64,000 bases of DNA from Rubripirellula sp. Its GTDB lineage: Bacteria; Planctomycetota; Planctomycetia; Pirellulales; Pirellulaceae. The DNA is taken from contig JAQWPZ010000017.1 in the NCBI GenBank assembly GCA_029245125.1, positions 1-64,000 of the forward strand, in the 5' to 3' direction. The notes under the pieces were generated by a model. The model was not told the origin of the DNA, did no database searches, and saw nothing but the letters and a program-made list of their open reading frames with translations. Positions 31,692-46,275 of this stretch are shown here, piece by piece. A program made the position numbers and the translations under genes. Position 1 is the first letter of the stretch, and every line of letters starts with the position of its first letter.

Positions 31692-32114
31692 ATGCAAGTT
31701 CCGAGTACTAGCCACCGTCGCAGCGTCGGCGCGAATATGACACCGATGATCGACGTGGTTTTCCTGTTGATCATTTTCTTTCTAGTGTCGAGTCATCTAG
31801 CTCGTCAGGAGAATCGTTTGCCGTTGGAGCTACCGACAGCAGCAACCTTTGATCCTTTTGACCCTGAGCGGGCACCGGTGACGATTAGCGTGAATCGCCA
31901 GGCACAGTGGCTGGTTGCGGGCGATGTGGTCGATTTGTCGGCTCTTCGGGACGTCTTGTCGGATTTGATTGAGCAGCAAGGATCTGCTGCGGCAATTCGA
32001 ATCCGTGCTGATGGTGCCGTGCAATATCGGTATGTAGAACCAATTTTGCGGGAAGCGGCATTGAAGGGGATTACGGACGCCGCGATCGCTGTTCGGGAGC
32101 GTGACGCACAGTGA
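31692..32114 (+). CDS. ExbD/TolR-family proton-motive-force transducer (copy 1)
   Basis: ExbD forms with ExbB/TolQ the inner-membrane motor that energises TonB-like proteins. The 140-residue chain has the single N-terminal membrane helix with the conserved TPMIDVVFLLIIFFLVSS, placing the proton-relay Asp at residue 21. A periplasmic TolR-like domain follows (LPLELPTAATFD ... AAIRIRADGAVQYRYVEPIL). It overlaps the second ExbD gene by 4 nt (GTGA). No ExbB/TolQ gene is adjacent or in the window, which is unusual for this family. Confidence 0.92.
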   Translation: MQVPSTSHRRSVGANMTPMIDVVFLLIIFFLVSSHLARQENRLPLELPTAATFDPFDPERAPVTISVNRQAQWLVAGDVVDLSALRDVLSDLIEQQGSAAAIRIRADGAVQYRYVEPILREAALKGITDAAIAVRERDAQ

Positions 32115-32554
32115 GAACTCCAAAGGTCCACGACAGCGAATCGATGGAGTTAAAAATGACTCCGATGATTGATGTTGTTTTTCTGCTACTCGTGTTCTTT
32201 GTTTGGACGAGTAGTTTCGAAATCCCTGAATTCGATTTGCCTAGTTCCATCGCACAACCGCCCGCCGGTGGAACCGAAATCAGCACCGATACGCCGCCCC
32301 CTGAAGCATTTGATGAAATTGTCGTCCGACTTGATCGACGAGAGGCCCAATTGGTCATCGAGGTCGGTAGTCAATCGTTCCCTGACATCGATGCTTTGGG
32401 GATCTATTTGACAGAAGTCTTGTCACTGGGGGTTCAACCACCGGTCATTGTTGATCCTGCAGACCAGATCTCGATGGCGGTGGCAGTTCAGGTCTACGAC
32501 GCGGCCCGCGACGCGGGAGCCGATCGCGTTCTGTTTGCGGCTGAACCGGAGTAG
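32111..32554 (+). CDS. ExbD/TolR-family proton-motive-force transducer (copy 2)
   Basis: This 147-residue paralog repeats the ExbD plan: MELKMTPMIDVVFLLLVFFVWTSS at the membrane, again with Asp at residue 21, then a periplasmic domain (LPSSIAQPPAGGTEIS ... IVVRLDRREAQLVIEVG). It starts at GTG 32111 overlapping the stop of the first ExbD gene, so the two are translationally coupled. Planctomycetes often carry two ExbD genes side by side, one of which may act as a heteromeric partner. It is followed after 3 nt by the 780-aa secreted protein gene. Confidence 0.9.
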   Translation: MRTPKVHDSESMELKMTPMIDVVFLLLVFFVWTSSFEIPEFDLPSSIAQPPAGGTEISTDTPPPEAFDEIVVRLDRREAQLVIEVGSQSFPDIDALGIYLTEVLSLGVQPPVIVDPADQISMAVAVQVYDAARDAGADRVLFAAEPE

Positions 32555-32557
32555 ACC

Positions 32558-34900
32558 ATGCGAAGCCGGTTTCTGTGCGTCATGTTGCTCGCATCAAGCC
32601 TCATTAGTGAGGCTCCGAATTTGCTCGGCCAACCACCTGTTGGACGACGCACAATCGATCTCGATCAGGATCTGTTTCAGGCGTTAGTGAATGCGAATCG
32701 GTTTGCCGATGCGATCGAGCTATGCCAAGCCCGATCACGTGGTGCCGATCCTCGCAGTGACTTGGCAGCGAAATGGGCCGTCAGGACGTCTCAGGCTCTT
32801 TCCGCCAAACAGTTGGTGAATGAGACGTTTACAGACGCAGAGACACAGGCCGTGCAGGAACCTGTGTCTCAGTTGTTGATTGCTTACCCTGATCAGGCAC
32901 GAAGTTTCTTTCTCGAAGCGCAGCAGCGTCGTGTTCAACGAGACGCAGCGAGGCATGCTGTATTACGAGCTGCGATCTCGCCAAGCGATAATGACCAGAA
33001 TGAGGCAGCCGCTGGTCGCTTGGTTCGAGCTGCGAACGAAATGGAAGCTCTGTCCGAACGCATCGCTGATGAGCGTTCACGACTTAGTGGCAGTCGTGAT
33101 CTGGATAGCCAACAGCAAATTGCCGACTTGACGCGATTGGAACAGTCGCTGCAAATCGATCTTGTTTCGTTGTCGTTATTGCAAACAGAATTGTTTTCTC
33201 GTGGCAGCCAAGATGGTGTTGCGGCTGCAGTCAGTGCCGAACAGGCTGCTGTTGCCGCACAAGCAAAATTACCGAACGGATCTGCTGCGCGGAGTGAAAT
33301 AGAGCGATTGAGAATCGAATCAATCCTGCGTGCTGATCAAGCCAAACGTGCTGACGGGGAATGGAAGCAAGCAATTGCAAAGGAAACAGGTTTGCGGTCA
33401 CCGCAGTGGCTTGCATTACGAATTCGCATCGATTTGGCACTCGACCAAATCCCGCAAGCGGAATCTCGATTGGCATCGTTCTACGGTACGACTCCTCGTT
33501 CAGCGCCTCTATCGGTCGAGATGGACCTAGCGAGGTTAGAGTATCTAATTCAAAGCACGCAAAATGGTGTCGTTGGTTCGTGGTTAGATGAAATCGGCAA
33601 GCGTGGTGGCCCCTATGCCCGCCGTCGCGCCGAAGCGTGGTCCCTCAACTATCTCAAGCAGTCATCAATTGGCAGTCGACCTAAAGTCGATCCCTCGATT
33701 ATCGCTGCCCAAGCAAAGGATTGGTTGCGGCGCGGAGAATTGACTCGCGCCGCCGAGTTGTTGTCAGCGGCAGCAGCGGCTGAAACAGACATGAGCCGTG
33801 CGATCTCGCGAGCCATTGAAGCGGCAGCCGCTTGGAAGAAGGCGGGGGCATCAAGCAAAGCAGCGGAAATCTTATCTGACATCGCGCTCAGCAAACCCCG
33901 GGGGCGCGGCGCTGCTGCCGCACATTTGCAGGCCATCGTGTTGGCTGCTGCCAGCAATGAATCTGGTGTTGCAGAAAAAGTTGAAGCCATGCTCCGCAGG
34001 AATCTTGACCAATGGCCTCAAGGTAAAGCGGCCGACGGAGCGCGACGCTGGCTCGTTAAGTTGCTTGAATCACGGTCGCGTCCTATTGACGCGGCGGTCG
34101 CCGCAACCCGGGTCGCTGATGTCGATCTTGACTCCAAGCAACTCGGCCGCATCCTGGCGCAATGGCGATCTGCGTTTCGATCAATCGATCCTAGTCAAGC
34201 GACTGATTTCAATACGCAGCTTGAGGAAGCGTTTGCATCACTTCGTAAAAATCCGGCTGGGGTTGGCACACACCGACTGATCTTCGCGCTCGTTGCGGAT
34301 CGTTCTTGGTTGCTGGGTCTACCGTCTGCTAACGCTGCAGAGCCTCCTTGGATTGATGCACTTATCGAATTTCGAAAAACGGGCAACGAAGATCAAGGTT
34401 TGTCGACGATTCCGGAAGCTGAGCGAGAGGATGTTATCAGTCGATTAATGTTAGATGGACGCGGCGAACCGTCTCGACGTCGAGCGATTGCCTCGTTGAT
34501 CGAGACGTGGTTTGAGTCACGGGATAGAGAACCACCACCTTCTCTCGGATATGTTGAGCGATTGCTTTGGTTGAATCAGACATCCGAAGCGATCGGGATG
34601 GCCAATTCGTTGGTCAAGAGTTCACCCGATTCAGCCAAGGCGATTCAAGGAGTCGCTGAATTACTTGGGTCCAGTCGAGATGCGGAAGCCCGTAAAGAGG
34701 CAATTGGGTGGTGGGACCAACTCGCGGCTGGCAGTACTTCCGGAAGCGACGTGTGGCATAGGGCAAAGCTGGCAGCAATCCGCTTGTTGGCGGCTACTGG
34801 GCAGAACGATCAGGCACGTCAACGCGCAAAATACATCTTGCTGACTAAGCCTGATCTTCCACTTGATCTGCGACGTCGGTATCGGGCAGCGGCCAACTAA
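32558..34900 (+). CDS. Secreted helical-repeat protein of unknown function, third gene of the ExbD operon
   Basis: The 780-residue protein has a signal peptide (MRSRFLCVMLLASSLISEAP...) and is mostly helical and TPR/SEL1-like in texture (FQALVNANRFADAIELCQAR, LRRGELTRAAELLSAAAAAE, AIGMANSLVKSSPDSAKAIQ). A coiled-coil stretch lies around residues 155-230. It begins 3 nt after the second ExbD gene, so it belongs to the same transcript. I do not recognise a named family. Its placement suggests it is a periplasmic partner of an ExbD-driven complex. Confidence 0.8.
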   Translation: MRSRFLCVMLLASSLISEAPNLLGQPPVGRRTIDLDQDLFQALVNANRFADAIELCQARSRGADPRSDLAAKWAVRTSQALSAKQLVNETFTDAETQAVQEPVSQLLIAYPDQARSFFLEAQQRRVQRDAARHAVLRAAISPSDNDQNEAAAGRLVRAANEMEALSERIADERSRLSGSRDLDSQQQIADLTRLEQSLQIDLVSLSLLQTELFSRGSQDGVAAAVSAEQAAVAAQAKLPNGSAARSEIERLRIESILRADQAKRADGEWKQAIAKETGLRSPQWLALRIRIDLALDQIPQAESRLASFYGTTPRSAPLSVEMDLARLEYLIQSTQNGVVGSWLDEIGKRGGPYARRRAEAWSLNYLKQSSIGSRPKVDPSIIAAQAKDWLRRGELTRAAELLSAAAAAETDMSRAISRAIEAAAAWKKAGASSKAAEILSDIALSKPRGRGAAAAHLQAIVLAAASNESGVAEKVEAMLRRNLDQWPQGKAADGARRWLVKLLESRSRPIDAAVAATRVADVDLDSKQLGRILAQWRSAFRSIDPSQATDFNTQLEEAFASLRKNPAGVGTHRLIFALVADRSWLLGLPSANAAEPPWIDALIEFRKTGNEDQGLSTIPEAEREDVISRLMLDGRGEPSRRRAIASLIETWFESRDREPPPSLGYVERLLWLNQTSEAIGMANSLVKSSPDSAKAIQGVAELLGSSRDAEARKEAIGWWDQLAAGSTSGSDVWHRAKLAAIRLLAATGQNDQARQRAKYILLTKPDLPLDLRRRYRAAAN

Positions 34901-44281: not shown

Positions 44282-45325
44282 ATGACCTTAAAACCGAAAA
44301 AAACGCGAGATTCAGCGGCTTCGCCAGAGGTTGACTCGGATTTGCCGCTGCCAAATCGAACAACGCCTGCCATGCTGATGTCGCTGCTGATGCACGTCAT
44401 TATCCTGACCACGGCGGGATTGATTTGGTCTCGCGAGCCCGCGGGGACCGGGCAGCCGACCGATCGTCCGATTGGAATCGCCATGGTCCATCGGATGCCG
44501 GACCGCGATCGCTACGTTGAAGCCAGTCAAACGACGGCGGTCCAGGCTGAGCAAGCGGCCGCTGAATCGACTCCCTCAGCTGCCGCCGCGCCCCCAGCCG
44601 ATTTGTCCCCGCCAGTCGATTTGGCGGGCGTATTGGAGGCGATGGAGTCAATCCCGTCACCCGTCTCAGGCACAGGGTTAGCTGGTGAAACACAGCTGGG
44701 TGGCGATGCTTTCGAGGGTGATGGCAGCGGAAGCACGACTGGCAACTCCGAGGAAGCAACCACTACTTTGTTCGGGATCTCCGGGAGTGGGTCGCGATTC
44801 GTCTACGTTTTCGATCGTTCCGACAGTATGAATGGTTTTGGGGGGCGACCTCTGCGAGCGGCCAAGTCAGAAATGATCCGGAGTCTGCGATCGTTGACCG
44901 AACGACAACAATTCCAGTTGATTTTTTACAACGATAAACCCTCACCATTCAAACTCTCGGGACTGCCGTTGCAGATGATTTCGGGTGAGGAGTCCTATCG
45001 TCAACTGGCAGAAAATCATATTCGGTCGATCCAGGCGTTCGGTGGGACCGAGCATGAGACAGCGCTGAAAATGGCGCTCCGAATGGGACCAGATGTCGTG
45101 TTCTTTTTGACCGATGCCCGGATCCCTCGGCTGTCATCATCCGAACTAAGAGATATCAAGAATTTGGCTGATAGTGTCGGTGCGACGATTCACACGATTG
45201 AATTTGGTCCCGATCCAGCCGCGCCGGCTGACAGTTTTTTGCGAATCCTTGCAGCGCAGAATCTGGGCGAATATCGCTATATCAATGTGCAGACCCTTGG
45301 TCAGATCTCGGCGGGCAGCGAATGA
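44282..45325 (+). CDS. VWA-domain protein with TonB-like S-x3-H membrane anchor
   Basis: The 347-residue protein has a charged cytoplasmic start, one membrane helix (about 31-50, MLMSLLMHVIILTTAGLIW) and a long Ala/Pro/Ser-rich periplasmic linker to about residue 165. A VWA domain then runs to the end with the MIDAS motif FDRSDSM (Asp178, Ser180, Ser182) and GGTEHETALKMAL. The helix carries S34-x-x-x-H38, the same spacing as the TonB/TolA motif that contacts ExbB-ExbD. The protein could therefore be an ExbBD-driven adaptor. It overlaps the next gene by 4 nt (ATGA). Confidence 0.8.
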   Translation: MTLKPKKTRDSAASPEVDSDLPLPNRTTPAMLMSLLMHVIILTTAGLIWSREPAGTGQPTDRPIGIAMVHRMPDRDRYVEASQTTAVQAEQAAAESTPSAAAAPPADLSPPVDLAGVLEAMESIPSPVSGTGLAGETQLGGDAFEGDGSGSTTGNSEEATTTLFGISGSGSRFVYVFDRSDSMNGFGGRPLRAAKSEMIRSLRSLTERQQFQLIFYNDKPSPFKLSGLPLQMISGEESYRQLAENHIRSIQAFGGTEHETALKMALRMGPDVVFFLTDARIPRLSSSELRDIKNLADSVGATIHTIEFGPDPAAPADSFLRILAAQNLGEYRYINVQTLGQISAGSE

Positions 45326-46275
45326 CGAATTGCACCGGCAGACAACGCTGTATCTCCAGAGATTTCGCCATGATCTTTCTGTTGAGTGGAATCAGTCTAT
45401 TCTTCGTTCAGCCAGTCTTCGCTCAGGCAGATTCACCGCGGGCGGATTCCCTGGATCGTGTTTGGGTGCAACCACCGCCATCGACCGGCCAAACGGCCTC
45501 GTGGTTCCCGCCTTCAGTTCGTTCAGTGGAAGGACAGATTCTTCGGTTCGATTCCGCTCAGATGGAGATTGTTGTTCAGGGTGCGAGTAGTGCGTCCCGG
45601 TTGGCATCCGAACGCGTTGTGTGGGTTCAGCCCGCAGGATTCGAATCATTAGAAGGTCCGATGGTAGACCTTTATCGGAAAGGTGAGTTTGCCGACTCTC
45701 TCTCTAGGTTGCCTGCGACGCTGGAACAAAGACCACCCATTTGGCGTCAGCAGTGGATCACGATGTTGGCGGCCAATGCGGCGTGGAAGAGCCGGCGAAG
45801 CAAGATCGCGTTGGACCTTGTTTCGCAGCTTGATCGTCGTCCATTACCATCCTCGGCAGTTGCCTGGTTGCCGATTGCGTGGCAACGCGGAGTTCAATCG
45901 GCTGAGGCGATGAGAGACGCAGAGCCTCGGCTATCGGATCCCTCGGAAGCTGTTCGCTTGGTCGCTGCGAGCTGGTTGTTGTCTTCCTCCAAGCGAAACG
46001 ACGCAGCTGCTGTGCTCAAACAGCTTGTCGCCAGTGATCGTGATGAAATTGCCACCCTGGCGGGGTCCTTGCTGTGGCGTACAGCCTCTCCACCTGAGGT
46101 TCAACGTTTGGCTCGCAAGTGGGAGCAGCAACTCGCTGATATGCCGATGGTTTTTCAACCTGGTCCGACCCGTGCTCTGGCCGATCAGCTGGAAGCCGCT
46201 GGGATGGCTGAGAATGCCAAGCGGTTGCGATGGGCGATGGAATTGACGCCTATTCACCCAAGTTTTCGTGATTAA
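45322..46275 (+). CDS. Secreted repeat-like protein, partner of the VWA protein
   Basis: The 317-residue protein contains a signal peptide that fits better from Met17 (MIFLLSGISLFFVQPVFAQ, ATG 45370), although ATG 45322 overlaps the VWA stop. After a beta-like part (SVEGQILRFDSAQMEIVVQG), the rest is helical and HEAT/TPR-like (AWLPIAWQRGVQSAEAMRDA, AAVLKQLVASDRDEIATLAG, PEVQRLARKWEQQLADMPMV). The overlap implies co-translation and a shared role with the VWA protein in the periplasm. The start is not settled. No named family. Confidence 0.75.
   Translation: MTNCTGRQRCISRDFAMIFLLSGISLFFVQPVFAQADSPRADSLDRVWVQPPPSTGQTASWFPPSVRSVEGQILRFDSAQMEIVVQGASSASRLASERVVWVQPAGFESLEGPMVDLYRKGEFADSLSRLPATLEQRPPIWRQQWITMLAANAAWKSRRSKIALDLVSQLDRRPLPSSAVAWLPIAWQRGVQSAEAMRDAEPRLSDPSEAVRLVAASWLLSSSKRNDAAAVLKQLVASDRDEIATLAGSLLWRTASPPEVQRLARKWEQQLADMPMVFQPGPTRALADQLEAAGMAENAKRLRWAMELTPIHPSFRD

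Follow-up and report, generated by a model that had tools for sequence, protein, structure and literature searches.

With TonB and TolA as their outputs, the ExbBD and TolQR motors power import and keep up the outer membrane. In the gliding machinery of Myxococcus, which has the AglRQS motor, one TolQ-type and two TolR-type proteins are combined with a VWA protein, CglB, which is a surface adhesin. The residues proposed to dock TonB and TolA on the motor are Ser16 and His20 in TonB and Ser18 and His22 in TolA, and the motor box of both proteins is a predicted strand with a presumed contact to the ExbD/TolR dimer (PMC12204202). Force transducers with an SHLS anchor and a vWA domain have been predicted by Williams-Jones et al, 2025 (PMC12204202), who list Planctomycetes among the phyla that have them, and their modelling of this SHLS-vWA class places a conserved histidine at the TonB/TolA site (PMC12204202). 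Here we describe a VWA protein encoded at 44282–45325 on the plus strand of a 64,000-nucleotide stretch of DNA from Rubripirellula sp. (the window). With good confidence we regard it as an adaptor that serves a proton-driven ExbB5-ExbD2 motor in the manner of TonB and TolA, a VWA head replacing their C-terminal domain; the docking, the force, the ligand and the physiological role we infer.

Architecture and conservation of the VWA protein

The ORF starts with an ATG, at a distance of 162 bases from metK, which is read divergently, and encodes 347 residues that form a short cytoplasmic tail, one TM-like helix (residues 28–49; 44363–44428), a long linker (50–158) and a VWA head (159–340; 44756–45301). 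In an AlphaFold model made with 32 orthologs as input the helix has a pLDDT of about 90, the linker is disordered with low pLDDT and the C-terminal region folds as a VWA domain with pLDDT of 87–98. Foldseek matches the head to inter-alpha-inhibitor (6fpz, E 3e-11) and to a bacterial VWA protein (4fx5, E 7e-10). Pfam gives VWA alone for the ORF, as a VWA_2 match with an E-value of 2.4e-5 and a score of 25.4 bits, just under the 27-bit curated cut-off, and neither a TonB_C nor a TolA C-terminal domain was found. The head carries a complete MIDAS, with Asp178, Ser180 and Ser182 in a D-x-S-x-S arrangement (44813–44827), Thr256 (45047–45049) and Asp278 (45113–45115), all of which are invariant. The closest named genomes are those of Rubripirellula and Rhodopirellula, the top match being a Rubripirellula MAG at 95% identity. 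A first-pass annotation of the window had described a single helix with Ser34 and His38 in the TonB/TolA spacing, which is present at 28–49, followed by a long linker and a VWA domain with an intact MIDAS, both borne out by AlphaFold, Foldseek and the invariant MIDAS residues.

Residues 34–38 of the helix are S-L-L-M-H, with Ser34 at 44381–44383 and His38 at 44393–44395. A class-wide search found relatives of the protein in 97 of 119 genomes, the weaker matches including paralogs. Amongst 41 aligned members the serine is present in 41 and the histidine in 40. The three residues in between are freely variable: over the 118 rows of a larger set the entropy at residues 35–37 is 2.2–2.8 bits versus 0 at residue 34 and 0.07 at residue 38. 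A search of named genomes, built on a closer 10-member set, gave 79 named loci, and in all 77 of those with the N-terminus covered, the window row counted in, both residues are found. Taking distinct orthologs with a readable anchor, both are present in 113 of 113, down to about 27% identity; these are deduplicated rows, the 118-row count having included the window twice plus some shared genomes, and three sequences gapped at the anchor by contig ends (L134, L135 and L183) lie outside the 113. Conservation of the serine and histidine in orthologs, on which the first-pass annotation had made its reading depend, is therefore seen throughout this set. The motif is also commoner in these proteins than chance would give, being present in the first hydrophobic segment of 41 of 44 VWA-family proteins versus six of 282 other proteins (2%) with an N-terminal segment of this kind in the same loci; two of these six are near ExbB/ExbD genes. 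An apparent change of the histidine to arginine in the ortholog L065 (genome G063), likewise outside the 113, was rejected, as the frame opens with a signal-peptide-like stretch that replaces the anchor. At the leucine position of the SHLS pattern (His+7) leucine is found in 75 of 118 rows and the window has Ala45, and the second serine position (His+11) is neither conserved nor serine. Searched on its own, the TM anchor profile matched no chain in the PDB, its 34 positions being too short to be informative.

The helix at 28–49 contains no aspartate. This bears on a second published class, TPH-vWA, in which the helix of the vWA protein stands in for ExbD inside the TolQ pore and which likewise pairs vWA with TolQ-like genes (PMC12204202). 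The window helix, however, has a serine and a histidine, and the ExbD-type aspartate is carried by two co-encoded ExbDs, so that assignment to this class would seem extremely improbable.

Past the helix, residues 62–68 (44465–44485), R-P-I-G-I-A-M in the window and R-x-V-G-I-V-L in the consensus, start 24 residues beyond His38. Their mean column score is 1.74 versus 3.05 across the remaining linker, and in conservation this stretch equals the VWA domain. A relaxed form of the motif occurs in 98 of the 135 sequences, most often 24 residues past the histidine, and in 5% of shuffled linkers. Because it is placed just past the helix in a disordered region, as in TonB and TolA, the R-x-V-G-I motif may be read from its position and pattern as a motor box.

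Three other VWA proteins, L084:9064–10149 and L086:6882–8114 (own genome) and L203 (G115), have the anchors SLVTH, SVAFH and SLIFH, respectively; no ExbB or ExbD was found in their fetched flanks, and the R-x-V-G-I motif is missing.

Linkage to ExbB and ExbD genes and dispersal of the operon

In relatives the VWA gene stands first in an operon whose usual order is VWA – HYP (TPR-like) – ExbB – ExbD – ExbD, often with a large TPR gene last. Of the 40 class-wide loci, 23 have an ExbB gene on the same strand within 4 kb of the VWA gene (21 downstream and two upstream) and the other 17 have none inside this distance; amongst the 79 named loci 30 have one. The named and class-wide sets share some genomes. 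By our estimate, from nine ExbB-family genes in 7.06 Mb, linkage by chance would be about 1%. A second VWA paralog, seen in eight fetched loci from other genomes of the family (L191–L198), has the identical operon order and keeps the S-x3-H motif; the stretch after its helix differs from the R-x-V-G-I type. A tree built on 135 sequences has the ExbB-linked state in deep branches, and the window clade, with 49 members and a support of 0.99, is nearly without linkage, so the simplest account of the window arrangement is that the operon was dispersed later.

Within the window's genus the operon is dispersed: VWA and HYP stay paired and the other parts are retained apart. In the window, three of these parts lie together on the plus strand. 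ExbD1 (31692–32114; PF02472, E 4.6e-23) contains the stretch TPMIDVVFLL with the ExbD-type aspartate, ExbD2 (32111–32554; PF02472, E 9.2e-18) has a GTG start and overlaps ExbD1, and the gene at 32558–34900 encodes a large secreted helical-repeat protein with no Pfam match of its own, which phmmer and HMM searches identify as a homolog of the last ('TPR') gene of the operon in relatives. The start of ExbD1 lies 12.6 kb upstream of that of VWA, and in nine genomes of the genus, the window's included, the two genes share contig and strand about 12.6–13.6 kb apart, so that orientation and distance are kept. The cognate ExbB of the window genome is on another contig (G000:C129:14835–15683, minus strand). 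Despite this dispersal the serine and histidine are invariant in the window clade. One genome, G131, keeps ExbB and is without VWA and ExbD1; co-loss is not claimed here, since the missing genes are close together and an assembly gap is equally likely. The cognate ExbB type is kept by most VWA-bearing genomes and is missing from six of them (G043, G061, G081, G087, G103 and G111), where other ExbBs would have to serve; the pairing is thus not absolute. The first-pass annotation had also made its reading hang on a genetic or physical link to an ExbBD pair. A strong genetic link is found, in relatives to one ExbB and two ExbDs and in the window as a dispersed remnant; the annotation had not tied in the ExbD pair at 31.7 kb, the two TPR-like partners or the motor-box-like motif.

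It could be argued that the protein is anchored in the membrane and has no relation to ExbBD, with S-x3-H kept by descent or for helix packing. The unlinked VWA gene in the window clade would suit this explanation, as would the standalone relatives with an S-x3-H anchor and no ExbBD in the fetched flanks (L084, L086 and L138–L146). Against this, the two residues alone are invariant across deep divergence, the background of the motif is just 2%, same-strand linkage recurs in deep branches of the tree, and the genome of L065, the sole ortholog with a replaced anchor, is without an ExbB of the cognate type. We therefore consider this explanation very unlikely, and coupling of the VWA protein to the motor, judged from these sequence comparisons, very likely.

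The gene after VWA encodes the HYP partner (45322–46275, plus strand), its start overlapping the VWA stop as ATGA, and this place after VWA is kept in relatives. The protein has a likely signal peptide, a small five-strand beta domain (residues 45–103) and a TPR-like alpha solenoid. Orthologs of HYP match TPR families, as do most of the longer copies in relatives; in the window's genus, as seen in the window protein and the copy at L090:8769–9758, HYP is without about 60 C-terminal residues found in other relatives. Homology of HYP to BamD is not claimed, the TPR/BamD-like matches from Foldseek being weak (E 0.007 and worse). Matches to dTor proteins, which are designed repeats, were dismissed as artefacts. 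Both HYP and the 32558–34900 protein are predicted to be periplasmic, and these co-encoded TPR-like proteins would be the likeliest ligands for the VWA head.

Several further loci combine motor genes with other proteins. At L080:8493–11204 (G000:C246) and L089:654–2510 (G000:C213) large proteins are encoded directly after ExbB-ExbD or ExbD. Their TM helices contain SVFVH and SLGLH, and both have an alpha/alpha toroid that resembles squalene-hopene cyclase (Pfam E 2.5e-6 and 1e-8, respectively); they may represent another type of ExbBD-driven transducer, in which the toroid is the head. A 552-residue protein at L095:2326–3984 (genome G111) has the anchor WLASLTGHLTLL and lies near an ExbB-ExbD-ExbD set. 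The locus L076:2921–9131 (G000:C252), with a secreted 1029-residue protein, a HYP-like protein, ExbB and two ExbDs and with no adjoining VWA gene, is a sister motor operon in which the transducer is not obvious. Just past another ExbB-ExbD-ExbD set, L079:4691–5191 (G000:C91) encodes a 166-residue protein whose helix has a T-x3-H pattern (FTVIVHVAVIG), perhaps a short TonB-like adaptor.

A proposed mechanism of motor coupling

The adaptor reading draws on the architecture of the protein, the invariant anchor and MIDAS, and the operon linkage. As proposed for TonB and TolA, Ser34 and His38 would dock the helix in the outer groove of the ExbB pentamer, and the strand-like R-x-V-G-I motif would pair with the periplasmic portion of the ExbD1/ExbD2 dimer. 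Powered by proton flow, the motor could then pull or reorient the flexible linker, and the VWA head would use its MIDAS to pass the motion to a partner in the periplasm or the outer membrane. The first-pass annotation had arrived at a force-transducing adaptor with a VWA head, and the conservation of the two residues and the gene linkage give this support; physical coupling and force transmission we infer.

The anchor and the synteny indicate association and not mechanical work, and the VWA-TPR pairing would suit a scaffold. The protein might thus be a static accessory, with the helix docked on ExbB and the remainder regulating, gating or positioning the motor, or scaffolding the TPR proteins, without transmission of force. 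However, the three-part layout with its long disordered linker and motor-box-like element is that of the transducers TonB and TolA (PMC12204202), and the operon shows no other gene for a transducer. On balance a static role seems unlikely, though less so than a protein with no relation to the motor, and a force-transducing adaptor is the preferred reading.

A more specific form of the adaptor can be put forward tentatively, as one possibility that we hold to be somewhat short of probable: an integrin-like, proton-driven coupling in which the motor pulls the VWA head and the head holds a periplasmic TPR protein or an outer-membrane ligand by its metal site. The MIDAS contact would then be gated by force, and in planctomycetes the system would add a third form of envelope work to those of Ton and Tol-Pal, still functional after dispersal of the operon in the Rhodopirellula group. 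If the adaptor reading is true, the motors have a third widespread output, with a metal-binding VWA head, implying a further force-driven envelope process in planctomycetes.

Comparison with TonB, TolA and the predicted SHLS-vWA class

The window protein resembles TonB, the partner of ExbB-ExbD, in its S-x3-H anchor, its disordered linker and the strand-like element past the helix; it differs in having a VWA head in place of the TonB C-terminal domain and in having no adjoining TonB-dependent receptor. The one TonB_C protein of the genome is a different gene, beside a TonB-dependent receptor plug domain, and its anchor, GISLVLHASVF, is at the level of sequence an internal positive control for S-x3-H: the anchors are nearly alike, ISLVLHASV in TonB and MSLLMHVII in the VWA protein, and the post-helix stretches as SRVISIK and DRPIGIAM. 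With TolA and its TolQ-TolR motor the locus shares the S-x3-H anchor, a co-encoded motor of TolQ/TolR type and a periplasmic TPR protein. Unlike TolA, the protein has no TolA C-terminal domain, there are two distinct ExbD/TolR proteins, and no TolB or Pal was recognised in the locus. CglB of Myxococcus differs from the window protein in being an adhesin at the cell surface and not an S-x3-H inner-membrane transducer.

The window protein belongs to the predicted SHLS-vWA class, which it matches, going by the published description, for which a Tichowtungia family was used, on all features tested except the full SHLS. As described for this class (PMC12204202), it has an N-terminal helix with a serine and a histidine, a disordered linker of around 100 residues and a C-terminal vWA head, and the genes for a TolQ-like protein, two TolR-like proteins and a TPR protein adjoin in relatives and are dispersed in the window genome. 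The operon differs in its order, VWA-HYP-ExbB-ExbD-ExbD-TPR with a second TPR-like gene, whereas in the published class the vWA gene often follows TPR, tolQ and two tolR genes on their downstream side (PMC12204202), and in its dispersal in the window's genus. Ser34 and His38, the motif at 62–68, the MIDAS and the two TPR-like partners provide exact residues and genes for probing the 2025 prediction, and to that prediction (PMC12204202) the present comparison adds figures for conservation, the order of the operon in planctomycetes with HYP as an extra gene, the dispersal in the Rhodopirellula group and an explicit R-x-V-G-I motif.
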